Shown: positions 1 to 14,433 of the stretch, piece after piece
Position numbering within the stretch: position 1 is the stretch's first letter
Layout: every line of letters starts with the position of its first letter
DNA from: a virus
Reading direction: 5' to 3' (one strand)
Virus record (IMG/VR): IMGVR_UViG_3300001683_001896
Coordinates: 1 to 22,552 of that record
Length of the DNA: 22,552 bases
The notes under the pieces: model-generated
Databases searched by the model: none
Seen by the model: the letters and a program-made list of their open reading frames with translations, nothing else
Told to the model about the DNA's origin: nothing
Made by a program: the position numbers and the translations under genes

Positions 1-650
1 ACTCTGAAGTGGTAGGGATCTGGCGACGCGCCGCTGGACCCTCCGGCCTCATTGACGATCAAACCCTTGTGGATAGTAGTTGAACCAGAAACGTAAGCGT
101 TATCCGCGACCCAGAGATCATTCCCGACTGTGACTGAGCCAGCTGCTGTTAACGGTCCGGCTACCGTGGCTGAACCAGAAACGTAAGCATTATCTGAGAC
201 CCAGAGGTCGTTTCCAATCGCGGCTGAGCCGTCTATAGTGGATGATCCTGAAACGTAAAAATTGTCCGCCACCCAGAGGTCGTCTCCGATCCTGGCTGAC
301 TGTGATACAAACAGGGAACCAGAGACCAATAGAGAGCCTGTGACAGATTCATCGACCTCGGTGATCATCCGCTCTGCGAAGAGCGTTCCGGATACTATAA
401 CATCACCACCAAAGAGTGATACGTTCGATCTTGCCTTGCCCAACCCAACCAAAGATGACTTGGTGCCTGAGACGAATAGGAACACATCAGTTCCCACATC
501 GGACAGCATGCTTGAATCACCGACGCTTCCAATGAAGTCGGACGCATTGGAGGAGCTGTAGATGATTATGGAGGGCTCCCCGCCTACTGAGCCAGAACCA
601 ATTATCTTGGTTGTACGAACCTGATTTGATTGAAAATCTTTGATTGACAT
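1..650 (-). CDS. Tail fibre-like repeat protein, C-terminus cut by window edge
   Basis: The frame is open from ATG at 648-650 to the left edge (216 codons) with no stop, so only the N-terminal part is seen. The product begins MSIKDFQSNQVRTTKIIGSG and is rich in Gly, Ser, Val, Thr and Asp. From about residue 115 on it carries three copies of a unit of the form [IV]GxDLWVxDNxYVSGSxTI, spaced 24 and 30 residues. Such short hydrophobic/Gly-Ser repeats are typical of beta-helical or beta-solenoid phage tail fibres and virion surface proteins. No enzymatic motif is visible. The start follows the TAA of the upstream gene by one base, so it is translated from the same message as the two small genes at 652-1349. 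Tail fibre or other virion decoration is inference from repeat style and context; the host-binding end would lie outside the window. Confidence 0.6.
   Translation of the reverse strand, partial: MSIKDFQSNQVRTTKIIGSGSVGGEPSIIIYSSSNASDFIGSVGDSSMLSDVGTDVFLFVSGTKSSLVGLGKARSNVSLFGGDVIVSGTLFAERMITEVDESVTGSLLVSGSLFVSQSARIGDDLWVADNFYVSGSSTIDGSAAIGNDLWVSDNAYVSGSATVAGPLTAAGSVTVGNDLWVADNAYVSGSTTIHKGLIVNEAGGSSGASPDPYHFR
83..300 (-). repeat. Three degenerate in-frame DNA repeats inside the fibre-like gene
   Basis: The plus-strand core GAAACGTAA recurs at 88, 178 and 250, each followed by a similar block containing GACCCAGAG or CACCCAGAG. Spacing is 90 and 72 bases, both multiples of three, so the repeats change the protein by whole units of 30 and 24 residues. 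This is the DNA side of the LWVxDNxYVSGS protein repeat. Confidence 0.7.
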
Positions 651-2725: not shown

Positions 2726-2998
2726 GTGTGTGGTTTGAAAGAAAAAACGTGTTATCAAATAATTTTCGAAACTGATCAGGCTTGTGATGTTGATACCTGT
2801 CGACATTTCTTAGGTTCAGAAAGAGATTTGAACTGTTCAATAATTGCGGCGAAATCCGGCCCAAAGACTCTGCAAGAGATCGGTGATTACTATGGAATCT
2901 CTCGAATGAGAGTTTGTCAAATAGAGAAGTCAATCCTAAAAAAATTACGGATTGATAATGAAGGAATAAAATTATTCGACTCCCTAGCCGGCGAGTAG
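2726..2998 (+). CDS. Small sigma-70 region 4-like helix-turn-helix protein
   Basis: 90 residues on the plus strand, against the trend of the neighbours. Residues 48-75 (TLQEIGDYYGISRMRVCQIE and the following KSILKKLR) match the sigma-70 region 4.2 pattern LxEIGxxxGVSRxRVxQIExxALxKLR, which recognises the -35 promoter element. Region 2 is absent, so it could be a stand-alone region 4, a transcription activator or a sigma-appropriator. The frame is closed by a stop at 2717, so the start must be GTG 2726 (or TTG 2735). An ATG at 2724 lies in another frame and stops at once. AAGGGAAG about 8-11 bases upstream is a plausible ribosome binding site. The 3' end overlaps the convergent FtsZ-like gene by 15 bases. 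An antisense open frame at 2691-3002 is a shadow. Fold assignment is fairly sure; function is inference. Confidence 0.72.
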   Translation: MCGLKEKTCYQIIFETDQACDVDTCRHFLGSERDLNCSIIAAKSGPKTLQEIGDYYGISRMRVCQIEKSILKKLRIDNEGIKLFDSLAGE

Positions 2999-4060
2999 GC
3001 ATAGAACTATTAAGCCAGGAATTCTCTCTTTTACATACACACCTGAAAAAAGTGCCTCTGTTCGACCTCCGACATAACTGAATGCAGCCTCTAAATTTTT
3101 ACTAACTCTGGGATCCTCTGCCATAGTTGATGTCACAATGAGAAGTAAAGCACCCCTTTGACTTCTAGTACTAGGTGGTGGACACGGAGAAGCATTAATA
3201 CACCCCTGAAGGACGGCAACACCCAGATCAGTCCGATCGGTGTCCCTTATTACGGTACTCCCCAAGACGATTCGATCAGGTGTACTTAGACATTTCTCTA
3301 AATCTTTAGAATCAAATGCCTGGATATCCGTGTGGGTTGCGGCCAATTTCAATACCTGAGACAGCATCTTAGCAAAATTAGTATTGGCAACCGGATAGAG
3401 GTTCAGCATGCCAACCTTGTTTCTAAGAAGCTGTAACTGCCTTTCATTATCGATCACAATATGTGGATGATTAGATACATCCTCTAAGAGAGCTTGATAA
3501 TTTCGCTCTATAGTGGTATTGAGTAATTCCTGCGCGCTTGGCCTAGAAATAATGTATACTACCTTGCCGGAAGCTCCCACAGCTTTAAGGTGGCGTGTGA
3601 GGGCATCATGAAGGACCGAACATGCGCTACCCGTGCCACCGCCGCCTCCGGCGAGAACGAAGAGCCAGTCAGTCGCGCCGATTCTGGCTCGAACTGCATC
3701 CTCCACTAGGGCACTGTTTTCGCCAAGAATTTTCTTACCGAGATCCACATCCTTTCCGACGCCGTCGGCACCGGGTACTAAGAGGAAATTAGGTGGATCA
3801 ACTCCGTCCGGTTGGTCTTTGATTGTCGTGTTCACTAGCAGTGTCTTGGCAAAGCCCAGGTCTAGAAAGGCTTTGGCCATCTTTCCCCCTCCACCGCCGA
3901 CGCCTATGAAAGCACATTTTATTGCGCTCTCTGCTGTATTCTCAGGCAGAGCCTGTTCATCCGGGACGTCGTCAGTCTCAGAGTACGATCCCGCAAAATC
4001 AAATTCATCATCCAGAGATTCTGGATTTATATAGAGATCATCCTTATTTTCTTCACTCAT
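2984..4060 (-). CDS. FtsZ/tubulin-superfamily GTPase with acidic N-terminal extension
   Basis: 358 residues. About 45 acidic residues (MSEENKDDLYINPESLDDEF onward) precede a tubulin/FtsZ GTPase core. Seen in order: glycine loop IGVGGGGGK (52-60), the tubulin signature GGGGGTGSA (138-146), IVIDNERQL around 201-209, and a stretch AFDSKDL at 248-254. The last lines up with the FtsZ T7 loop NxDFADV, keeping both acidic residues (D250, D253) but replacing the Asn. The family polymerises with GTP into filaments; jumbo phages use tubulins such as PhuZ to position the phage nucleus or move capsids. This one looks closer to FtsZ than to PhuZ, but that needs a tree. It lies downstream of the tmRNA in the same direction and its 3' end overlaps the plus-strand sigma-like gene. 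Start: ATG at 4058-4060, with GAGGAG a few bases upstream. Confidence 0.82.
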   Translation of the reverse strand: MSEENKDDLYINPESLDDEFDFAGSYSETDDVPDEQALPENTAESAIKCAFIGVGGGGGKMAKAFLDLGFAKTLLVNTTIKDQPDGVDPPNFLLVPGADGVGKDVDLGKKILGENSALVEDAVRARIGATDWLFVLAGGGGGTGSACSVLHDALTRHLKAVGASGKVVYIISRPSAQELLNTTIERNYQALLEDVSNHPHIVIDNERQLQLLRNKVGMLNLYPVANTNFAKMLSQVLKLAATHTDIQAFDSKDLEKCLSTPDRIVLGSTVIRDTDRTDLGVAVLQGCINASPCPPPSTRSQRGALLLIVTSTMAEDPRVSKNLEAAFSYVGGRTEALFSGVYVKERIPGLIVLCLLAG

Positions 4061-4098: not shown

Positions 4099-4504
4099 TG
4101 GTGGAGGCGCCGGGAGTCGAACCCGGGTCCAAAGCACACTTAATATTGTGTCATTCACAAGGTTAGTCAATCTTTTTTTAGAGCAGAAAAGGAAGACCAA
4201 AAACTGTTTCATCCCCGCTACCAGAGCTTTCTTTTTAGCCAGAAGAAAGAAACTGGTTTTTGCTAATTTTGGGTAATAAGGCAATTAGCAACCCCAGATG
4301 CTTAATTTACGTAAGCAACAGCCTCCGAGGCCTCGTCCAAGAGTTGTACGGGCACGTAGCCAGTACGATCCTTCAACGAGAACCACGGAGTCGCCAAAGA
4401 TACATCGTTGGCAATCATTTTTTTAAGCGTTTTTACAGAGACCATCGCTTCCCTCTGCCTTGCACACAATATCTCACATGCCCTGTCGAAGCCATTTCGC
4501 CCCC
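4099..4504 (-). ncRNA. ssrA: One-piece tmRNA (SsrA)
   Basis: Transfer-messenger RNA that rescues stalled ribosomes. Read on the minus strand, the 5' end GGGGGCG (4504-4498) pairs over 7 bp, with one G-U, with CGCCTCC before the encoded CCA end at 4099. The T-arm GGGTTCGACTCCCGG-like segment sits near 4107-4128. The 5' D-like segment GGCTTCGACAGGG is present. A long P2 helix joins ATATTGTGTG with ACACAATAT near the 3' side. Pseudoknot 1 is clear (CAGAG/CTCTG and AAGCG/CGCTT), followed by an A-rich run and the resume context ATGATTGCCAACGAT. After the tag, pseudoknot 2 (GGG/CCC with TTGCTAATT/AATTAGCAA) and pseudoknot 3 (CCAG/CTGG with CTTTCTT/AAGAAAG) are visible. The 5' end is only 4 bases after the stop of the histone-like gene, so it is probably cut from a longer message. 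Partner SmpB is not in the window. Confidence 0.95.
4302..4412 (-). other. tmRNA tag-peptide reading frame, 36 codons
   Basis: The resume codon is read as GCC at 4412-4410, giving a tag that begins ANDVSLATPW and ends EASEAVAYVN before TAA at 4304-4302. AND is the classic tag start. The stop lies in a 6-bp hairpin TGCTTA/TAAGCA, the usual helix 5 position. At 36 residues it is longer than ordinary tags, and it lacks the usual small hydrophobic end (LAA, VAA). The alternative frames stop early or do not start with AND. Confidence 0.65.
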
Positions 4505-4508
4505 GATA

Positions 4509-4703
4509 TTAAGTCTTGCGAGCCTTGTCTGATTCAATAGTTATCTTGACTAATTCTGACGACTTAGTCTTGAGCAGCCTCAAGCCTCTTCGTGCACGAA
4601 CCCCTGCCGAGGCATTTCCGTTGGCATTCTTTTGCACGTCTAAATCTAAAGACTCAATCAGTACCTTAATTTCATTCCACTGGTCTAATGTTGATGACGA
4701 CAT
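4509..4703 (-). CDS. Histone H1-like Hc1-family DNA-binding protein
   Basis: 64 residues. The pattern LIESLDLDVQKNANGNASAG (15-34) followed by VRARRGLRLLKTKSSELVK resembles the chlamydial/bacteroidete Hc1 family (SLxxDLxKAxxGNKAAAxRVRxxxxxLEKxxKxYRKES), with the conserved GN and the Arg-rich helix. Hc1 proteins condense DNA. In a phage it could organise replicating or packaged DNA, but that is inference. The start is firmly placed by AGGAGG just upstream of ATG 4701-4703. The stop TAA is 4 bases from the 5' end of the tmRNA. Very short length means the family match rests on pattern only. Confidence 0.6.
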   Translation of the reverse strand: MSSSTLDQWNEIKVLIESLDLDVQKNANGNASAGVRARRGLRLLKTKSSELVKITIESDKARKT

Positions 4704-4714
4704 AAATTTTCCTC

Positions 4715-4954
4715 CTAAACTAAGATTGTCGTTGTGTTAGTTACGTTCTCTTTCTCAAGAGAGGTATCAATAATTTCTGTGATTTTTTTCATTGCGTCGA
4801 TGTTCTCTAATTCTAGAGAAAGCAACTTGATGAGTGTGTGTAGTTGACTTTGATTCACACCAAAATTTAGAATCTCATGTATAATTTCCCTACACTGGGC
4901 AGATTCCAATATAATTTTATCCTCTCTACACGCTGTAAACTTTTTGATTCCCAT
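4715..4954 (-). CDS. Hypothetical small helical protein
   Basis: 79 residues, MGIKKFTACREDKIILESAQ onward. It is predicted to be mostly alpha-helical, with a Leu-rich segment around residues 40-60 and a Thr-rich tail. No known motif is seen. Its ATG overlaps the TAA of the upstream zinc-ribbon-like gene (TAATG), so the two are translationally coupled. The family is unknown; real-gene status rests on coupling and on filling the space between two supported genes. Confidence 0.55.
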   Translation of the reverse strand: MGIKKFTACREDKIILESAQCREIIHEILNFGVNQSQLHTLIKLLSLELENIDAMKKITEIIDTSLEKENVTNTTTILV

Positions 4955-5481
4955 TACGTTTCTGTCCTTATAATGTATGATTCCACTCTAAGGCGGTCAC
5001 TCGCTAAAAATTTGACTAGCTTTCCTTGAATTATTCCGTCTATTTCCTCACGTGTGAGGATGATATGATCATTCCAATTCTTATTTTCTAGAATAAATTG
5101 TGCATGTTCAAAATCTGCAATATCTTTCTGGTAAGTCAATAAAAGATCGTATAAGTCATTAGGCAGCGCAAACTTGAAGTCATCTACAGTCATCTGAGTT
5201 ACTACTTCATCTCGTCCTGTGACAATTTCCGATTTGCAGATATCAATGACCTTGTGCACAGCACCACAATTATTGCACGAGGCAAACTTGGGAATTATGG
5301 TATCACTTTCCTCATCAAGAATAGAGAAGACAACAAATTGATGAAATGTAGGATCTTCTGAATTCCGATACTGCGGAAGGATGCAGTGACACTGTATCAG
5401 ATGTTTGGTGCCTGACTTCAAAGCGTTCGTCTTGCTAGCGTGTACCCAGAACCCTATCAATGAGCCGATCTGTCTGCTCAT
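4954..5481 (-). CDS. Conserved-looking phage protein with CxC...CxxC zinc-ribbon pattern
   Basis: 175 residues when started at ATG 5481. A GTG at 5526 would add 15 residues but would deepen the overlap with the preceding gene from 47 to 92 bases. Cysteines C31-H-C33 and C69-N-N-C72 form a likely zinc site, bracketing the segment ILPQYRNSEDPTFHQFVVF. The C-terminal half is acidic and helical. No enzyme motif is visible. The function is unknown. The overlap with the 91-residue gene and the TAATG junction with the next gene place it in a tightly packed block leading to the histone-like gene and tmRNA. Confidence 0.65.
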   Translation of the reverse strand: MSRQIGSLIGFWVHASKTNALKSGTKHLIQCHCILPQYRNSEDPTFHQFVVFSILDEESDTIIPKFASCNNCGAVHKVIDICKSEIVTGRDEVVTQMTVDDFKFALPNDLYDLLLTYQKDIADFEHAQFILENKNWNDHIILTREEIDGIIQGKLVKFLASDRLRVESYIIRTET

Positions 5482-5710
5482 GTAAGATTTCTTGTACTTT
5501 TGTGGATAGATTAATTGCCGCTTCACGATCTAAGCGCTTCGTCGCGACGAGCTCAGATAAGAATAACTCTGAAAACTTTTGGTTCAAAATATCTCTGGTG
5601 TCTAAGATATTTCTACCAATTTGTGCCTGTGACGTTACGCCTGGGGTTTCTATTTTTAGGGTCTTAGACATCACTTTAGTGGCCTTTTTCTTAACATTTA
5701 TCTTACTCAT
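5435..5710 (-). CDS. Hypothetical small basic protein
   Basis: 91 residues with a Lys-rich N-terminus (MSKINVKKKATKVMSKTLKI) and a helical C-terminal half (LSTKVQEILHEQTDRLIDRV). GAGGA upstream of ATG 5708-5710 supports the start. It is the first gene after a 49-base gap from the chaperonin-like gene, and its 3' end overlaps the next gene by at least 47 bases in a different frame. No family is recognised. It may be DNA- or partner-binding given its charge, but nothing in the sequence shows this. Confidence 0.55.
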   Translation of the reverse strand: MSKINVKKKATKVMSKTLKIETPGVTSQAQIGRNILDTRDILNQKFSELFLSELVATKRLDREAAINLSTKVQEILHEQTDRLIDRVLGTR

Positions 5711-5759: not shown

Positions 5760-6965
5760 TTAGAGGCTTAGAATAATATTGCCAATATTCCCCATGACAG
5801 TTCGGCACGACTCCGCAGCTCGAATTCCCACGAGCTCAGCAGTATAAGACACATGGGGCTTGAAATTGCCGTTTCTGTCAGCAACTGATTCAATCAAAGA
5901 CGTATTACAAATACCGGATCTGGCCACCCCAATACATGCCTTCTGGGCTATTTTACATCGATCTCTAATTACACCCATTAGGTTAGCGAGTCTTTTCGGC
6001 ACTTTTATTTCCACATGTTGTGATGCACCTGCTTCGTTTTGGAATGATGCACCCTGACGTGAGAAAAGAACATACTCGTGTTTGGTAAAATCGTCTAACA
6101 CAGTATTTTTTAGAGTCTCCCCCGAGCCCGGCGACACACACTTGATGTTCATCTTTCGACAGGCATCTAGGGCATCTGATTCTGATGCTGATTGTTTAGA
6201 AGGAGTTACTTCCCACTCTCTAACAGTGAATGGAATTGCTCTTAATGTTCCAGTGCGCCAATTTTTCTCGAGTGTTGTTACAACATCTGGCCCAAAACCT
6301 CTAGCGCATATGATAGAACTACACTTTTCTGAGGCTATCTCCTGGAGAAGATGGTCTACTTCTCCCACTGCCTCTATGATTCCGTCAACTGCGATAATTA
6401 CTGGATTGTCTAGACGCTGTATTCGGCCGGAGCTATCAAATAGTGGGTGTATCTCACCTAGAATCTCTTTAGTCGTGTATGCCTGAACAACAAAGTCATT
6501 GACGTGTGTGAAGCTAAAATTCAAACTAGCTGACATACCGCCGGCATAAATTATTTGGGACATTAATCTGTGAATGAGACCCTTCCCTAAAAAATAGTGC
6601 AGTGTATCATCGATACTTCCTGGGTCTGCTCTGTTCATCAGAGTATTTCTCGTTACTAGCGTTTTGTCAATCTTGTGTTTATGCGCAAGTAGATATGCAC
6701 AGATGATCCCTGCGCCTACCTGCTTATTCTCTGCAGATAGGATTGCGTTAATAATGATGTTTCGTATGGTGAGATCTAAAGAATCTTTCTGCGACCACTC
6801 AGATAACACGCGTATCAAATCTGCGGGCCTGGCTGTGGTTACTCGAGTGCCGTAGTTTAGAATAAGCGCGTCAGTATGTAATTTGAAGAGCATAGAGGAT
6901 AGCTCTTTAAGCAGGTATGCGTACCTCGCTCTTATGATATTTTCACTAACAACGGTAGTGTGCAC
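5760..6965 (-). CDS. Divergent, shortened GroEL/Cpn60-like protein without the ATPase motif
   Basis: 401 residues from GTG 6965, which begins 4 bases after the upstream stop. A longer frame back to 7130 is rejected because its first 55 codons overlap the membrane-protein gene in another frame. Residues 187-310 follow the GroEL apical domain in order: NPVIIAVDGIIEAV, LLQEIASEKCSSIICA, DVVTTLEKN-RTGTLRAIPF, then LDACRKMNIKCVSPGSGETL and LDDFTKHEYVLFSRQGA, matching GroEL PFILLADKKI through VVINKDTT. GVARSG (346-351) and the final RAAESCRTVMGNIGNIILS resemble the return to the equatorial domain. Where GroEL has GDGTTT, this has QVGAGII (82-88), so ATP hydrolysis is probably lost, and the chain is about 145 residues shorter than GroEL. 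It is the last gene of the PrkA-module block. Homology is fairly convincing by order of motifs; function is unknown. Confidence 0.55.
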   Translation of the reverse strand: MHTTVVSENIIRARYAYLLKELSSMLFKLHTDALILNYGTRVTTARPADLIRVLSEWSQKDSLDLTIRNIIINAILSAENKQVGAGIICAYLLAHKHKIDKTLVTRNTLMNRADPGSIDDTLHYFLGKGLIHRLMSQIIYAGGMSASLNFSFTHVNDFVVQAYTTKEILGEIHPLFDSSGRIQRLDNPVIIAVDGIIEAVGEVDHLLQEIASEKCSSIICARGFGPDVVTTLEKNWRTGTLRAIPFTVREWEVTPSKQSASESDALDACRKMNIKCVSPGSGETLKNTVLDDFTKHEYVLFSRQGASFQNEAGASQHVEIKVPKRLANLMGVIRDRCKIAQKACIGVARSGICNTSLIESVADRNGNFKPHVSYTAELVGIRAAESCRTVMGNIGNIILSL

Positions 6966-6969
6966 AGAC

Positions 6970-7239
6970 TTAGTGGAATGTTTTTGGCTTGCCTGGTTTC
7001 TTAAAGATCTCACTGAACGCCTGGGCCAAATCTTCTGAAGCTGTTCCCACCTCTTTGAACAGAGCCTGTTTAGCTTCCTCTTCCTGTGCTTTCTTCTGTA
7101 TACGAATAATTGATCTGCACACAGCACCAAGGACAGCGATCACACAAAGAGTAATACCGATCGCTGTACTATCATGCCCATAAAGTAGTGCGCCGCATAC
7201 TAGGGATAATTCTGGAAACCCAAATTCGACGCGTTCCAT
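6970..7239 (-). CDS. Small single-pass membrane protein in the PrkA block
   Basis: 89 residues. One hydrophobic helix spans about residues 25-46 (STAIGITLCVIAVLGAVC), preceded by a moderately hydrophobic segment at 8-20, and followed by a charged helical tail (RIQKKAQEEEAKQALFKEVG) of possible coiled-coil character. The ATG overlaps the stop of PrkA (TAATG) and the stop is 4 bases before the chaperonin-like start, so it is embedded in the operon. The likely topology is a membrane anchor with a cytoplasmic C-terminal tail. It could tether the kinase module to the membrane; that is a guess from position. No family is recognised. Confidence 0.68.
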   Translation of the reverse strand: MERVEFGFPELSLVCGALLYGHDSTAIGITLCVIAVLGAVCRSIIRIQKKAQEEEAKQALFKEVGTASEDLAQAFSEIFKKPGKPKTFH

Positions 7240-9173
7240 TAGCTATCCCGCCATAGATTATTAGAGGCGTATGCGAGGATCTCCTCTGCGCTCTCGCCTG
7301 TGTATCCATAGTCATCGATCATTGTCTGTATCATATCGCTATACTTCTTCTGTTGCTCATCATCTCTAGTCTTAGACTTAGTTATAATTCTCGCCATGGA
7401 CTTTACAGAGGTGATCAAGTAAGACTCGATAGCTTCCTTGAGAGGCTCATAGCTGGTGTAATTGACTTTCTCACCGCGACGCATCTTGGCGAACATATAG
7501 GCAGTCACATCGCTCCTGAAGCCGTCCTTAGCAGAACCAGTTATCCCTATCTGCTCCTCAACGGATCTAAGAAACTTTTCATCTGGCTCCCTTTCCTCTT
7601 TGGTCAACTTGTCTTTTAGCTTCTGATGAGTCGTGTAGGCTTCCGCATTGTCCAGATACGTGTCGAAAAGTGATTGTGCCTGTTCTTCATAGGCACTTAC
7701 AAATGCCTTTGCCACTTCATTCTCTAGAATGTTCAAGTACTCTTCTCGTACAATTTTTTGGATGATCTCTAAACAGTGCTGCTTAAACTCCTCGTCGGCG
7801 ATCTGGTCCTTTATCATCCGGGTCAGTGATTCAATGACAGAGATAGGAGTTATCATGTTTTTGTCTGAGTTAGACAGGGCTCCATCTAGAGCCTTGGCGA
7901 TGAATCGTGTGGATATCCCTGACATACCCTCTCTACTAGTCTCTTCCCGTAGATCCTCTATGTCGATCCTCTTTACTCTTCCCTTTTCAATGATATCCTC
8001 TCCATTGTAGATCTTCATCTTGGTGATGAGATCACACTTGCCGGAGGGCTTAAGGCGAGACATGATTGAGAACATCGAAGCTACTCTAAGCGTGTGAGGT
8101 GCGATGTGAGACGTGAAATCAGATTGTCCCAATAATTTTTCATAAATTTTGACTTCCTGATCTAGCTCTAAACAGTAGGGCACGTTGATCTTCACCACCC
8201 GGTCCAAAATGGCCTCGTTGGTGTGTTCACTTTGGAAACGATTCCACTCTGACTCATTACAGTGCGCAATAATAACTCCATCAAAGTAGAGCATGTCAGA
8301 TTTACCAGGGGAGGGGATCCTCTTTTCCTGTGTAGCAGTAATAATGGTATGCAAGAACTCTATCTCATTCTTGAAAATTTCTACTAGCTCAACAATTCCA
8401 CGATTGCCAACATTAAATGCACCATTGAGAGACAGCGCTCTCGGATCGTCCTCTGCATAACGATCTAGCTTGGAAATATCTACACTTCCAATGAGCACGG
8501 ATGTATCTTGACTATTTGCGTCCATCGGTGGAACTGATGCGATCCCCCTTCGTCCACGCTGGGAAAAGCTAGATTCCTCAACGGGATAATCTTCATACTT
8601 TCCGTCCAGCTCATTCATCAACCGATATTGAACAACGGGTGATATGTCGCCCTCAATGGAGACACCTAATTTCTTAGAAAATTTGTCCCTGAGCGATCTG
8701 GGTACCAACTGTAGGGGCTCACCTCTTTGGGGATCCTTGGCTAAGTGATAATAGGTCTGACCGCTTAGAACACACTTGATGTGTTCTGTGAGTGCAGACT
8801 TGCCGGCACCGACCGGGCCCATTAGAAGCAAAACCTGTTTACTCTCTTCTCCCTTGTGCGCAGCCGATTTTAGGTACTGAACGAGCTTAGAGACTACTCT
8901 CTCCATGCCAAAGAACTCATCCTTGAAGTAATCATAGATCTTCATGGACTCATTGCTGAAGATCTTCTTTTTTCTGGGGTCTGAGTCTGGCATTGTACTC
9001 ACACCGTACTTGATTACACTCTCATAAAGTCGCTTGTGAGCCGGCTTAACAATATCCGGATGCTTCTTCACATGCTCAATGTAGTCCATGAAAGTCCCAG
9101 AGAATCTCTTTTGAGAAGCGCCGACCTTTCTTTGGGCCTGAATATCCTTTAAGAATTCGTCACTAATACTCAT
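7239..9173 (-). CDS. prkA: PrkA/YeaG-family AAA+ serine protein kinase
   Basis: 644 residues, full length for the family. An N-terminal AAA+ ATPase has Walker A GPVGAGKS (119-126), a typical SFSQRGRRG segment (202-210), the family stretch NRGIVELVEIFKNEIEFLH (257-275), and DGVIIAHCNESEW (298-310) with DRVVKINVPYCL (324-335). A helical C-terminal PrkA domain follows. PrkA/YeaG are known as stress and sporulation kinases working with YeaH/YhbH and SpoVR/YcgB; an ATP-dependent protease activity has also been reported for Bacillus PrkA. Its neighbours upstream are exactly these partners. The gap from SpoVR is 39 bases, the only notable gap in the module, and the stop overlaps the start of the membrane-protein gene. 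No truncation or missing core motif is seen. Substrate in the infected cell is unknown. Confidence 0.96.
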   Translation of the reverse strand: MSISDEFLKDIQAQRKVGASQKRFSGTFMDYIEHVKKHPDIVKPAHKRLYESVIKYGVSTMPDSDPRKKKIFSNESMKIYDYFKDEFFGMERVVSKLVQYLKSAAHKGEESKQVLLLMGPVGAGKSALTEHIKCVLSGQTYYHLAKDPQRGEPLQLVPRSLRDKFSKKLGVSIEGDISPVVQYRLMNELDGKYEDYPVEESSFSQRGRRGIASVPPMDANSQDTSVLIGSVDISKLDRYAEDDPRALSLNGAFNVGNRGIVELVEIFKNEIEFLHTIITATQEKRIPSPGKSDMLYFDGVIIAHCNESEWNRFQSEHTNEAILDRVVKINVPYCLELDQEVKIYEKLLGQSDFTSHIAPHTLRVASMFSIMSRLKPSGKCDLITKMKIYNGEDIIEKGRVKRIDIEDLREETSREGMSGISTRFIAKALDGALSNSDKNMITPISVIESLTRMIKDQIADEEFKQHCLEIIQKIVREEYLNILENEVAKAFVSAYEEQAQSLFDTYLDNAEAYTTHQKLKDKLTKEEREPDEKFLRSVEEQIGITGSAKDGFRSDVTAYMFAKMRRGEKVNYTSYEPLKEAIESYLITSVKSMARIITKSKTRDDEQQKKYSDMIQTMIDDYGYTGESAEEILAYASNNLWRDS

Positions 9174-9212: not shown

Positions 9213-10520
9213 CTAGACCTCCCAAAGTTCTTCTTCAATGATTGTAAATAATTTCGACTCTTTGTTCCACAAAGTGCTCACGTGTCCCACCACTGCCTCG
9301 GCATGATTTAACTCTAGATCTCGACCATCATGCTCGTGACGTAGTACTAACAAATCATCCTCTACTTCATCAATATAAATAACCGGGATAGAATTTGTTC
9401 CAACGTTTTTTAGGAGATCCAGCTTAACAGATTCCCATCCGTCCTCATCTGAGATCTCATCAATCGTCACACCCTCTTTCTTACCCTTATCAGAGTATGT
9501 GAATAAGCCTAGTTCTTCGCATAAGTCACGTGTAAGATATTGTCTAAGAAATGAGACATCATGGCTAGCTTCCCTCGCGATGAAGCACTCCTCAATTCCC
9601 TTTGTCTCCTCAATGTGTTGAAATAGTTTGAATCCTAGATAGTAGGGATTCAGGCCGCCCACATGAGGTCGCACAACTTGATTGTGTGTTTTTAGGAAGG
9701 GCAGGTGCCATTCTTCTGGTAGATTCAACTCATGAAGTAATGTATAGTGCCAATAGCAAGCCCAGCCTTCATTCATGATCTTGGTTTGAATCTGGGGCAT
9801 AAAATATTTGGACTCGTCTCTCACGATTTCAATAATATCCCGTTTCCAACTAGGCATGTCTACTGAGTACTCTGTGATGAATCCTAGGATATCGTAATCC
9901 GGTTCTAGAGGTAACCTAGAAATATCAAAATTCACGTATTCCTCTTTTGTATCATTCTTGATGAGTTTACTATATTTTTTAACTAGCTCACTCTTAGATA
10001 ACCTCTTTTGACCGTATCTATGAGTTTGAAATTGAAGTGCGTGTGCAGCATCCAGCATTTCATCCACCTCATCAATACCGATGGTGGGATCTTCGACATA
10101 TTTTTGGATCCTCTTCTTCGCACTACGCATGCTTCCAACCACAGCGCCTGGTCGAGTGTCTTTGAACATTCGATTATTTCTAAAAAAGTCAGAATGGCCT
10201 ACGCAATGGGCCATGATCAAGATCTGTAAATAGACGGGATTCTCTCGCATGAGATAGGCAATTGCAGGATCAGAATTGATTATCAACTCGTAGGGGAGAC
10301 CCTCTGCACCAGCATTGTACATTGCGTGTGTGCGTTCGAATGCCTTTCCATAGGACCAGTGTCCGTAGTGGGTAGGCATGCCATGATATGATGTGTGTCC
10401 AATCATTGAGAAATAATCGCACATTTCATAGTTGATTGGGAACCAAGTCAATCCCTTTTTGGATGCGAGCTCACATATCCTATCATCCCACTCTTCCAAA
10501 AGTTCGAATGTCCAATCCAT
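9213..10520 (-). CDS. spoVR: SpoVR/YcgB family protein
   Basis: 435 residues from ATG 10520, chosen because it overlaps the YeaH stop (TAATG). A longer frame to 10580 lies inside YeaH. Family blocks are clear: YEMCDYFSMIGHTSYHGMPT then HYGHWSYGKAFERT (31-64), YELIINSDPAIAYLMREN (77-94), AHCVGHSDFFRNNRMF (104-119) and MNEGWACYWHYTLL (249-262), with many conserved His, Glu and Trp. B. subtilis SpoVR acts in spore cortex formation and E. coli YcgB is a stationary-phase protein; the biochemical activity is not settled, though the His/Glu-rich blocks suggest metal binding. Slightly shorter than the bacterial proteins (about 470-510) but with all core blocks. Second protein of the PrkA module. Confidence 0.95.
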   Translation of the reverse strand: MDWTFELLEEWDDRICELASKKGLTWFPINYEMCDYFSMIGHTSYHGMPTHYGHWSYGKAFERTHAMYNAGAEGLPYELIINSDPAIAYLMRENPVYLQILIMAHCVGHSDFFRNNRMFKDTRPGAVVGSMRSAKKRIQKYVEDPTIGIDEVDEMLDAAHALQFQTHRYGQKRLSKSELVKKYSKLIKNDTKEEYVNFDISRLPLEPDYDILGFITEYSVDMPSWKRDIIEIVRDESKYFMPQIQTKIMNEGWACYWHYTLLHELNLPEEWHLPFLKTHNQVVRPHVGGLNPYYLGFKLFQHIEETKGIEECFIAREASHDVSFLRQYLTRDLCEELGLFTYSDKGKKEGVTIDEISDEDGWESVKLDLLKNVGTNSIPVIYIDEVEDDLLVLRHEHDGRDLELNHAEAVVGHVSTLWNKESKLFTIIEEELWEV

Positions 10521-11707
10521 TAGTAGTTGTCTCCTAGAGCGGTGACCTTTCCGCCGAATAATTTTGTGAAGGCCAGCCAAATGTCTGACTTATCATTAAT
10601 GGATACACACTTCATCTTTCGATTAGCGAGGCGTTGATACACATTAGATAATTTGGCCTCCTCAAACCAGCCCTCCTGTGTATCCTTGGGCTCAATCTCA
10701 CAATAACCAAATAACTGTGAAAAATCCCGAATCTGCTCTGCTAGAGTTAATGTCCGGCCGGTATCATCAGGCCAATTATCACCGTCAGAGCACTGAAAGC
10801 AGTAGATATTCCAGCTCTGTGGATGATATCGAGAATTCACTATATCACACACTAGTGAGAGGCCTGATGATACTATTGTGCCTCCCGAGTTGCCCCTAGT
10901 AAAGAACTGTTCCTCATTAACCTCACTGGCGGACATATCATGGGATACAAAGACGATCTCAGTGTGCTCATACTTTGATCTGATGAAGTGGTATAGCAGA
11001 AAATAGAAGGCCCTCGCCAAGAATTTCTTGTTCCTGGTCATCGACCCAGAGATATCCATTACGAAAAAAATCACCGCGCTGGAACTCGGTTTCATTGACT
11101 TCTTATAGTGTCTATAGACTAAGTCATGTTCATGGAATGGAAAGGTCTCTTCATCATCAATTTTCTCGTGCCGATCGGTTGCCTTTTTTCTCTTTATCCT
11201 CTCTATCGCTGTCTTCTTTTTATCTAAACGAGGTTTGATCCCCGTTGCTCGATAGCCTTTCCTCTTATTCTTCTCTGACACGATTTTTTTAAGTGTCTTC
11301 TTTTCCATGTCCGGAAGTTCCAGGTCATCAAAGAGATAATGAGCTAGCTCTTCTAGCGTTATCTCAACCTCATAATATTCCTCTCCCGGATCGGACCCCG
11401 GCTTGTGTCCTTGATTTGACTTTTGTCCCTGCCCTTTTCCTATTTTCTGGCCACGCTGGATATCAGCCCCGGGTGCTGATCCCGCCTGCTTGTTGGTCTT
11501 GTTGTCTCCGTATACGAATCTATATTCTTTGATGCCCCGGACAGGTATCTTGATCTTCTTTTTGCCAGATTGGCCGATGATCGACTCATCGGCGACGATG
11601 TGATGAACGCCCTCCTTGATAGCACGTTCAATCTTCTTTTTGTGTCGCCGCCGATCTGATGCCGACCGATCAGCAACAGACTTATGCTCACGAAAGATGG
11701 AGGACAT
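10520..11707 (-). CDS. yeaH: DUF444/YeaH (YhbH) von Willebrand factor A-like protein
   Basis: 395 residues. The start MSSIFREHKSVADRSASDRR and the following RHKKKIERAIKEG match the conserved YeaH/YhbH N-terminus, which is followed by a Gly/Gln-rich linker (80-108). The C-terminal half is a VWA-like domain with the MIDAS metal site DISGSM (218-223), T277 in GGT, and SDGDN (307-311). YeaH partners PrkA/YeaG in Escherichia coli and YhbH partners PrkA in Bacillus. The MIDAS is intact, so divalent-metal-dependent protein binding is expected. The ATG abuts the TAG of the Nudix gene with no gap and the stop overlaps SpoVR, so all are made from one message. Length is near the usual 390-430. Confidence 0.96.
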   Translation of the reverse strand: MSSIFREHKSVADRSASDRRRHKKKIERAIKEGVHHIVADESIIGQSGKKKIKIPVRGIKEYRFVYGDNKTNKQAGSAPGADIQRGQKIGKGQGQKSNQGHKPGSDPGEEYYEVEITLEELAHYLFDDLELPDMEKKTLKKIVSEKNKRKGYRATGIKPRLDKKKTAIERIKRKKATDRHEKIDDEETFPFHEHDLVYRHYKKSMKPSSSAVIFFVMDISGSMTRNKKFLARAFYFLLYHFIRSKYEHTEIVFVSHDMSASEVNEEQFFTRGNSGGTIVSSGLSLVCDIVNSRYHPQSWNIYCFQCSDGDNWPDDTGRTLTLAEQIRDFSQLFGYCEIEPKDTQEGWFEEAKLSNVYQRLANRKMKCVSINDKSDIWLAFTKLFGGKVTALGDNY

Positions 11708-12127
11708 CTAGTGGACCCTCGTCATTTGTCTCACCCAACTAATAGTCGGCCGAAGATATGGATGTAGTTTATGCTCAGCTTGATCCATGGTAAGCCATTT
11801 AGCAGCGTGGTGCTCGTACTCTCCGGTCTCTGGATTGCGTTGTATGGACGGTTCTTGCGTCGTGACCGCTATATACAGCGTCACGTTTCTGGCTGCAGTT
11901 GTCTGCAGACCCCATCTGAAATCTAAATCACTGATCCCGGCCTCCTCCTCAGTCTCTCTCATCGCGGCTACGAGGCTAGTTTCAAAGGGCTCAACCCCTC
12001 CCTTAGGTAGATCATAACTGCCATAGACACGAAGGCCTAAGACTAGATAGTCTCCATCATGCTCTTTGAGGACTATAATACCGGCTCGTCTCTTCATAGT
12101 TTGGCTCTTAGAGGCGCCTTGAGGCAT
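11708..12127 (-). CDS. Nudix hydrolase (small diadenosine-polyphosphate/NTP pyrophosphatase type)
   Basis: 139 residues. The Nudix box GX5EX7REUXEEXGU is complete at 43-65 (GGVEPFETSLVAAMRETEEE then AGI), with the metal-binding REXXEE glutamates. The preceding GSYDLPKGG is typical of small Ap4A-hydrolase-like Nudix proteins, as is EHHAAKWLT near 104-112. Substrate (Ap4A, NDP-sugar, RNA cap-like or oxidised nucleotide) cannot be read from sequence. The start is supported by GAGGAG a few bases upstream of ATG 12125-12127. It is the first gene of the tightly joined Nudix-YeaH-SpoVR-PrkA block, which may link alarmone or nucleotide signals to the kinase module (inference). Confidence 0.92.
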   Translation of the reverse strand: MPQGASKSQTMKRRAGIIVLKEHDGDYLVLGLRVYGSYDLPKGGVEPFETSLVAAMRETEEEAGISDLDFRWGLQTTAARNVTLYIAVTTQEPSIQRNPETGEYEHHAAKWLTMDQAEHKLHPYLRPTISWVRQMTRVH

Positions 12128-13782: not shown

Positions 13783-14433
13783 TCATTTGGAAATTATATC
13801 CACTAGGCCTAACTCTAGACACTTGTCACTGTCTAACCAGAACTCGTGTCCCAAGAGTTCATCCAGTGTCTCCTCATTCATCTTAGTGTTCTCAAGATAT
13901 ATCTGTCGTATTTTCTCTGTGAGGACTTTTTGATTCTCGACCTCATCCATGAAATCGTCTAGCTTGCCCGCCCACTCTAACTGTTGTTGGTGCAACAGCA
14001 TGAAGCTGTTCTTGCTAATTGATCTCCTCTTTCCTGCAATAGAGATCATCGTTGCAGCGCTAGCTGCAGAACCATCAACGTAAGTGTGAACTGCGGTCTT
14101 ACAGTTCTTGACGGTGTCATATATCGCCAGTCCGGCAAAAAGAGATCCACCTGGACTGTGTATGTGTAGGTGGATCGGTACCGGCTTACAATCAAGTCTG
14201 CTACTCAGATACTGCATTTCTATGTCTAGACGTCTCAACAGTCGATTAAGCTCGAGTGCCTCGTGATGATCCACGTGGCAGTAGAAAAATATTCTATTCT
14301 CTTCTACTTCAATGCCTCTGGGTACCCGATCTGAAGATTGCTGGGGGATCAGCGAGTCATCTATTTGTAAATCGCTTCCAGACCCGGGCGAGGGTGGAAA
14401 ATTGTCATCATTTAATCTGTATCGCTGTCTCAT
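13783..14433 (-). CDS. clpP: ClpP-like serine protease with N-terminal extension
   Basis: 216 residues. A polar, proline-rich extension of about 40 residues precedes a ClpP fold. SPGGSLFAGLAIYD (93-106) is the usual SPGGs block, the nucleophile S125 lies in GSAAS, and the general base H148 in MLLHQQ. At the position of the catalytic Asp (before FW/FM) this protein appears to have E197 (GHEFWLDSDK), a possible substitution. In cells ClpP degrades proteins fed by ClpX/ClpA; phage ClpP-like proteins may also act as prohead proteases. The context here (helicase, unknown gene, tmRNA elsewhere) does not decide between them. The ATG overlaps the upstream stop (ATGA), implying translational coupling. 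Confidence 0.88.
   Translation of the reverse strand: MRQRYRLNDDNFPPSPGSGSDLQIDDSLIPQQSSDRVPRGIEVEENRIFFYCHVDHHEALELNRLLRRLDIEMQYLSSRLDCKPVPIHLHIHSPGGSLFAGLAIYDTVKNCKTAVHTYVDGSAASAATMISIAGKRRSISKNSFMLLHQQQLEWAGKLDDFMDEVENQKVLTEKIRQIYLENTKMNEETLDELLGHEFWLDSDKCLELGLVDIISK

Follow-up and report, generated by a model that had tools for sequence, protein, structure and literature searches.

Here we have shown that a 401-residue phage protein encoded downstream of a PrkA gene has the fold of GroEL (group I chaperonins) with a reduced equatorial part, and its sequence indicates that it derives from a GroEL-type protein in which ATP binding and hydrolysis were lost. We lean towards the view that this protein, here named deg, is a pseudo-chaperonin with a dead ATPase that serves as a subunit dedicated to scaffolding or to binding a partner, being neither a generic client binder nor strictly an adaptor of PrkA.

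Gene Order Around deg

The analyzed window is the entire IMG/VR record IMGVR_UViG_3300001683_001896 (22,552 bases), a phage fragment whose minus strand reads YeaH/DUF444, SpoVR, PrkA, tm89 and deg, followed by d91, zn190, d79 and d64; the names deg, tm89, d91, zn190, d79 and d64 were coined in the present analysis. Pfam identified YeaH/DUF444 (10520..11707, E 3.6e-113), SpoVR (9213..10580, E 3.7e-121) and PrkA (7239..9173; AAA_PrkA E 2.6e-138, PrkA C-terminal domain E 3e-81), all on the minus strand, and since SpoVR overlaps YeaH by 61 bases, its true start may lie inside the TTG open reading frame. The product of 11708..12127 (minus) is presumably a Nudix-like protein, a name given from its sequence features and not from a library match. 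The stop codon of PrkA overlaps the start of tm89 (6970..7239, minus) in the sequence TAATG, and deg (5760..6965, minus) begins with a GTG codon at 6965, a few bases past the tm89 stop, confirming the placement of two PrkA-coupled ORFs at 5760-7239 in the initial annotation. The 89-residue tm89, described there as a single-pass membrane protein, indeed contains one strongly hydrophobic stretch as judged by hydropathy only (best 19-residue window 27-45, mean 2.34), and its C-terminal half is charged.

Downstream of deg, the weakly conserved d91 (5435..5710, minus; 91 residues) mostly sits between deg and zn190 in related loci, zn190 (4954..5526, minus) is a Cys/His protein with an uncertain start, and d79 (4715..4954, minus; 79 residues) belongs to the same conserved block, of which the Hc1 histone-H1-like d64 (4509..4703, minus; 64 residues; Pfam E 2.2e-07) is the final gene. 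Between this block and a tubulin-like gene, a tmRNA is encoded at 4099-4504 (minus; RF00023, 134.5 bits), which is also present in the related loci L001, L002, L031 and L038 and absent from L041, L152 and L165. The tubulin/FtsZ-like GTPase itself (2984-4060, minus; Pfam Tubulin E 3.6e-5, PHROG PhuZ E 1.4e-3) has relatives in 16 of 93 loci. Elsewhere in the window, a ClpP-like or head maturation protease (13783-14433, minus; PHROG 94, E 6.4e-42) adjoins a DinG-like helicase.

The deg Family Has the GroEL Fold

As a single sequence, deg of the window gave one weak match, PHROG 5725 'chaperonin groEL' (E 0.024). It had no match in Pfam, including at the Cpn60_TCP1 cut-off, no PDB match by phmmer and no viral relative, among INPHARED phages or otherwise; INPHARED also lacked relatives of deg from locus L083, of zn190 and of d79. 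Relatives of deg were reached only via PrkA: viral contigs were searched for PrkA, the best 80 of 178 confirmed relatives were taken, and iterated profiles over these loci gave deg homologs as well as full-length ORFs carrying the GDGTTT motif. About 100 distinct deg sequences were collected, and the 51 relatives that were aligned are intact ORFs of 376-489 residues with 13-41% identity to deg of the window. A profile built from 53 distinct members without GDGTTT recovered all but one of the 12 GDGTTT ORFs, with E values between 1e-18 and 1e-34; the exception is a 119-residue end fragment. A reverse search with a GroEL profile found 42 of 58 deg members at E < 1e-3, deg of the window not among them. 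Pfam Cpn60_TCP1 matched one of the 51 aligned members (E 0.002). The profile of the 51-member alignment (A1) matched GroEL in PDB at E 5.8e-43, which rules out chance similarity, and hhalign of deg against E. coli GroEL combined with 10 viral GroELs gave E 6.9e-18.

The AF2 model of deg of the window (pLDDT 91.1, pTM 0.84) matches GroEL/Hsp60 across residues 1-401. In Foldseek the top PDB rows were all GroEL/Hsp60 (E 1e-19), and in VIA the GroEL/Hsp60 rows reached Z 18-22, with Z 21.8 and an rmsd of 4.2 over 389 residues for 8g7l; the apical part alone gave an rmsd of 2.3 over 139 residues against 1srv. Among predicted viral structures (BFVD), nine rows had E <= 0.001, all of them chaperonins. 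The proposal that the product follows the order of GroEL is therefore borne out by profile, hhalign and model alike, the structure prediction suggested as a check having returned a chaperonin fold. By alignment, with approximate limits, deg comprises a remnant equatorial part (1-107), an intermediate part (about 108-160), an apical domain (161-320), a second intermediate part (324-352) and a C-terminal equatorial remnant (353-401). An assembly error at the short apical end of deg in the window was considered and rejected, since the proteins of loci L001 and L002, compared by eye, are short there too.

The ATP Site and Parts of the Equatorial Domain Are Lost

Residues were counted by mapping the 51 deg members onto E. 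coli GroEL with hhalign. The replacement of GDGTTT by QVGAGII, noticed earlier from the window alone, turned out to reflect a loss of ATPase residues throughout the family: QVGAGII occupies the position of AGDGTTT in GroEL, with D87 aligned to A85 of deg, and the catalytic residues P33 and D87 were found in none of the 51 members, T89, T90 and D398 in one each, and T91 and G415 in three each, while N479-A481 had no counterpart. D52 is retained in 29/51 members, which leaves room for some nucleotide-related remnant in deg. The equatorial part is shortened, as had been proposed: deg of locus L074 is without GroEL stretches 425-449, 456-466, 474-482 and 484-492, the longer members have partly lost the region of approximately GroEL 425-492, and deg of the window is additionally without GroEL 110-131 and 339-373, its C-terminal end aligning differently by sequence and by structure. 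As a paired control, the full-length GroELs of the 12 largest deg-bearing records were inspected, and all 12 retain the catalytic residues that were checked (G32, P33, D52, D87, G88, T89-T91, D398, G414, G415 and D495), with N or D at N479 and A at A480 in 11 of 12. These proteins also carry hydrophobic residues at the groove, and a further set of 10 distinct viral GroELs gave the same picture.

Over 46 loci the mean distance was 2.63 for deg as compared to 0.34 for PrkA, and such fast divergence also fits relaxed constraint. Together with the lost catalytic residues, it might be taken to mean that deg is a functionless GroEL copy in decay. However, the 51 diverged relatives are all intact ORFs, the position of the gene is conserved and the groove helices show a conservation specific to the family, and we consider decay highly improbable.

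The Apical Groove Is Rewritten

The apical domain was initially proposed to bind substrates, a claim that the groove residues do not support in that form. Among the GroEL residues that we take to line the groove for clients and GroES, Y203 and L234 occur in none of the 51 deg members and Y199 and V263 in one each; L259 (12/51) and V264 (20/51) are partially retained, and L237 (42/51) and F204 (47/51) mostly so. The position of L234 is occupied by H, N, D or E in 49/51 members. A role as generic client binder was consequently dropped, since most residues for non-native clients are replaced across the 51 members. Still, the two groove helices are the most conserved region of the deg family, with mean entropies of 2.06 and 2.14 bits as compared to 3.03 bits for the N-terminal equatorial part (equatorial parts approximately 3.0). 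In deg of the window they lie at residues 188-214 and 222-240 and read PVIIAVDGIIEAVGEVDHLLQEIASEK and RGFGPDVVTTLEKNWRTGT; the motifs of the apical groove are IDGxIExVSEI..LL and ARGFxxDVxxTLxxN. Since the groove has changed its chemistry while its helices remain the best conserved part, a specific partner seems to fit better than generic clients.

Thus, deg descends from a GroEL-type ancestor and has lost the ATP site as well as most of the hydrophobic groove for clients and co-chaperonin. We envisage that it works independently of ATP, as a scaffold or binding protein whose apical groove would grip one specific phage partner and not unfolded chains. Candidate partners would be, in the first place, zn190, d79 and d91, which are encoded together with deg, followed by the phage GroEL or one of the clients of GroEL, for instance the T4-type capsid protein.

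zn190 Is the Constant Neighbor of deg

A scan anchored on zn190, and thus independent of PrkA, gave 226 confirmed relatives, of which 80 were kept and 76 represented new loci. In all 76, deg precedes zn190 in the same orientation; the two locus sets overlap, as 28 of these 76 loci hold a deg already present in the PrkA set. Across 32 aligned zn190 relatives, the residues H, C, C, H, C, C and H are invariant. The zn190 model is confident (pLDDT 90.7) and matched no PDB structure at E <= 0.001 and no VIA row at Z >= 5, and its sequence had no PDB relative better than E 0.49. The highest of the weak VIA rows (Z 2.9) belongs to a mitochondrial Hsp70 co-chaperone and was not taken as evidence. Four MAG contigs also carry zn190 and deg, with deg upstream in all four, and may represent binned phage. 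When 200 genomes from the phylum of one of these MAGs were searched with the deg profile (E <= 1e-45), only that MAG itself matched, on a contig of 305,838 bases where a gp23-type gene is found too.

The PrkA Cassette Is a Frequent but Replaceable Neighbor

Of the best 80 among the 178 PrkA loci, 57 have deg following PrkA in the same orientation, so that the survey proposed with the initial annotation did reveal deg beside viral PrkA. The other 23 loci were without an adjacent deg, seven of them with less than 3 kb of downstream DNA, and a search of the whole records located deg elsewhere in two (G030 and G031), distant from PrkA. In the zn190-anchored set, PrkA was present in 49/76 loci and missing in 27, of which 20 have 3.5 kb or more of DNA upstream. 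Moreover, among 22 whole records searched, 5 contained PrkA and 17 did not, including records of 340 and 324 kb. Thus, deg and PrkA are often adjacent on the same strand but do not constantly co-occur, and the view of deg as an extension of the PrkA operon stands as a description of many loci and fails as a rule, homologs without a PrkA link being found alongside a link that is old and widespread.

These data bear on the possibility that deg is an adaptor or scaffold of PrkA, positioned or anchored by tm89 and delivering substrates to PrkA. Such a role would agree with the invariable order of the genes (deg follows PrkA in the same orientation in 57/57 loci with both within 10 kb), with the TAATG coupling of PrkA and tm89, and with the distribution of the tm89 family, which separates PrkA from deg in 40 of the 57 PrkA-deg loci and, among the loci examined, occurs only there; a scan with tm89 alone found no relatives. 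It would also agree with the presence of PrkA-linked members across most of the deg tree and of the PrkA cassette before deg in two distinct upstream settings. However, the loci and whole records in which deg occurs without PrkA, as well as the two large records in which they are far apart, speak against it, and we consider an adaptor role quite unlikely. The partial distance correlation points the same way, being 0.07 for deg-PrkA and 0.49 for PrkA-YeaH over 46 loci, with deg distances nearly saturated. Since the value for deg-zn190 was also 0.07, neither neighbor is singled out as the partner.

In a quickly built tree with 97 rows of deg and 11 of GroEL, from which no direction of change was inferred, the GroEL rows fell on one side of a branch with an SH-aLRT of 100. 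PrkA-linked deg (71 of 93 labeled rows) occurred in most parts of this tree, indicating that the link is old, and the PrkA label needs five to six changes, with most PrkA-free rows in one clade. A conditional functional link between deg and PrkA may therefore still exist.

The upstream region was classified in 133 loci, duplicates counted. The order Nudix-(PrkA cassette)-deg was found in 59 loci and Nudix directly before deg in 3; a coiled-coil tail-anchored protein preceded deg in 17 loci and occurred together with the PrkA cassette in 6; neither upstream group was seen in 41 loci with PrkA and 7 without. In PrkA-free loci (L117, L128, L131, L139, L152, L154, L157 and others), the protein preceding deg is often coiled-coil with a hydrophobic C-terminus, again of membrane type and unrelated to tm89. 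Comparison of these with L115, L121, L122, L130, L144 and L145 shows the YeaH-SpoVR-PrkA cassette in two upstream settings, as if it had been gained or lost at one site. The varied settings indicate that the cassette is an optional block, and on the best reading it is a frequent yet replaceable upstream neighbor of deg. A 361-kb record (L012) contains PrkA, SpoVR and YeaH, with gp23, GroEL and deg not found, suggesting that the cassette crosses phage types. The enzymatic role of PrkA is itself disputed, protease activity being reported for the B. subtilis protein and not observed for that of B. anthracis (PMC13001217).

Large deg-Bearing Records Encode GroEL and a gp23-Type Capsid Protein

Among the deg-bearing records, full-length Cpn60 was found in all 12 with a length of 170 kb or more and in 0/40 of those of at most 137 kb, an absence tentatively put down to distance within the genome; as the virus records are related, the co-presence of GroEL and deg counts few independent events. 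Among 14 large records, a terminase was detected in all (one weak) and a gp23-type capsid protein in 13, both being present in each of these 12 large records with deg, a count that leaves aside the window as a 22.5-kb fragment. One 211-kb record (L059) contains GroEL and gp23, with no deg found. The records of L030 and L062 contain all or most of deg, GroEL, zn190, d79, d91, tm89 and PrkA. No match to the Cpn10 family was obtained in nine large records with PF00166, which might miss gp31-like proteins.

From this co-occurrence it could be speculated that deg joins the phage GroEL as a non-catalytic subunit, through its retained N-terminal, stem-loop and C-terminal strands, and tunes or specializes the ring, for instance for folding of the T4-type capsid protein. 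In the model, the predicted strands 3-6, 35-38, 41-44 and 397-400 match, by alignment, the positions of what we take to be the inter-subunit strands of GroEL, and GroEL and the gp23-type capsid protein accompany deg in all 12 large records. The unmatched Cpn10 family (9/9) would further suit this role, though its absence is a weak point given what PF00166 may overlook. On the other hand, the deg sequence is far diverged from GroEL, the inter-ring region is mostly deleted, and the 211-kb record has GroEL and gp23 with no deg found; we therefore regard a subunit role as unlikely. In T4, folding of gp23 is reported to require GroEL together with a dedicated phage co-chaperonin, gp31 (PMC3012670), which makes the combination of GroEL and deg worth considering. 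A bolder and distinctly improbable version is that an uncultured clade of T4-type jumbo phages keeps two chaperonins, the active GroEL and an ATPase-dead paralog with its client groove converted into a specific docking site. The dead paralog would join or cap the active ring as a built-in specificity subunit replacing a GroES-type lid, and the two would fold a protein of the phage, for example its gp23-type capsid protein. If true, one GroEL-fold protein would serve as the co-chaperonin of another. Our preferred reading remains that of a dedicated partner-binding or scaffold protein.

Comparison With Known Systems

Compared to E. coli GroEL and other GroEL/Hsp60 proteins, deg shares the three-domain fold over the full model and is homologous by profile. 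Unlike them, it has no GDGTTT, P33 or D398, has deleted stretches of its equatorial part and has changed the chemistry of its groove. Chaperonin genes in marine viruses are already known (PMC5332604), and the chaperonins of jumbo phages, such as phiEL gp146 and the GroEL of AR9, resemble deg in fold, AR9 and other phage GroELs being among the BFVD matches of the deg model. Those matches have at least 511 residues as compared to 401 in deg, and phiEL gp146 is reported to hydrolyze ATP and to form double rings (PMC7185714), in contrast to what the deg sequence suggests. In a survey of 224 jumbo phages, HSP60 is described together with tubulin for one group and HSP10 for others, the names PrkA and GroEL being unmentioned in its accessible part (PMC7824862). 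In the literature searched, which left most subscription journals outside, no ATPase-dead phage GroEL family was found.

T4 gp31 and GroES have an entirely different fold from deg and could be analogous in role only, as a phage-encoded partner in the folding of a T4-type capsid protein. The closest parallel in kind is offered by BBS6, BBS10 and BBS12, which are described as having the chaperonin domain order and an altered ATP hydrolysis motif and as serving as assembly partners (PMC5534436). These proteins are eukaryotic, derive from group II chaperonins and have gained insertions, whereas the deg family has lost equatorial segments, so the likeness is one of kind and not of relatedness. In conclusion, catalytically dead chaperonins are known in eukaryotes, and deg would represent a phage family of such a kind, which may bear on capsid folding in T4-type jumbo phages encoding their own GroEL. 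The presence of deg next to an active GroEL in large genomes provides a natural experiment on what the GroEL fold can do without ATP and without its hydrophobic groove.
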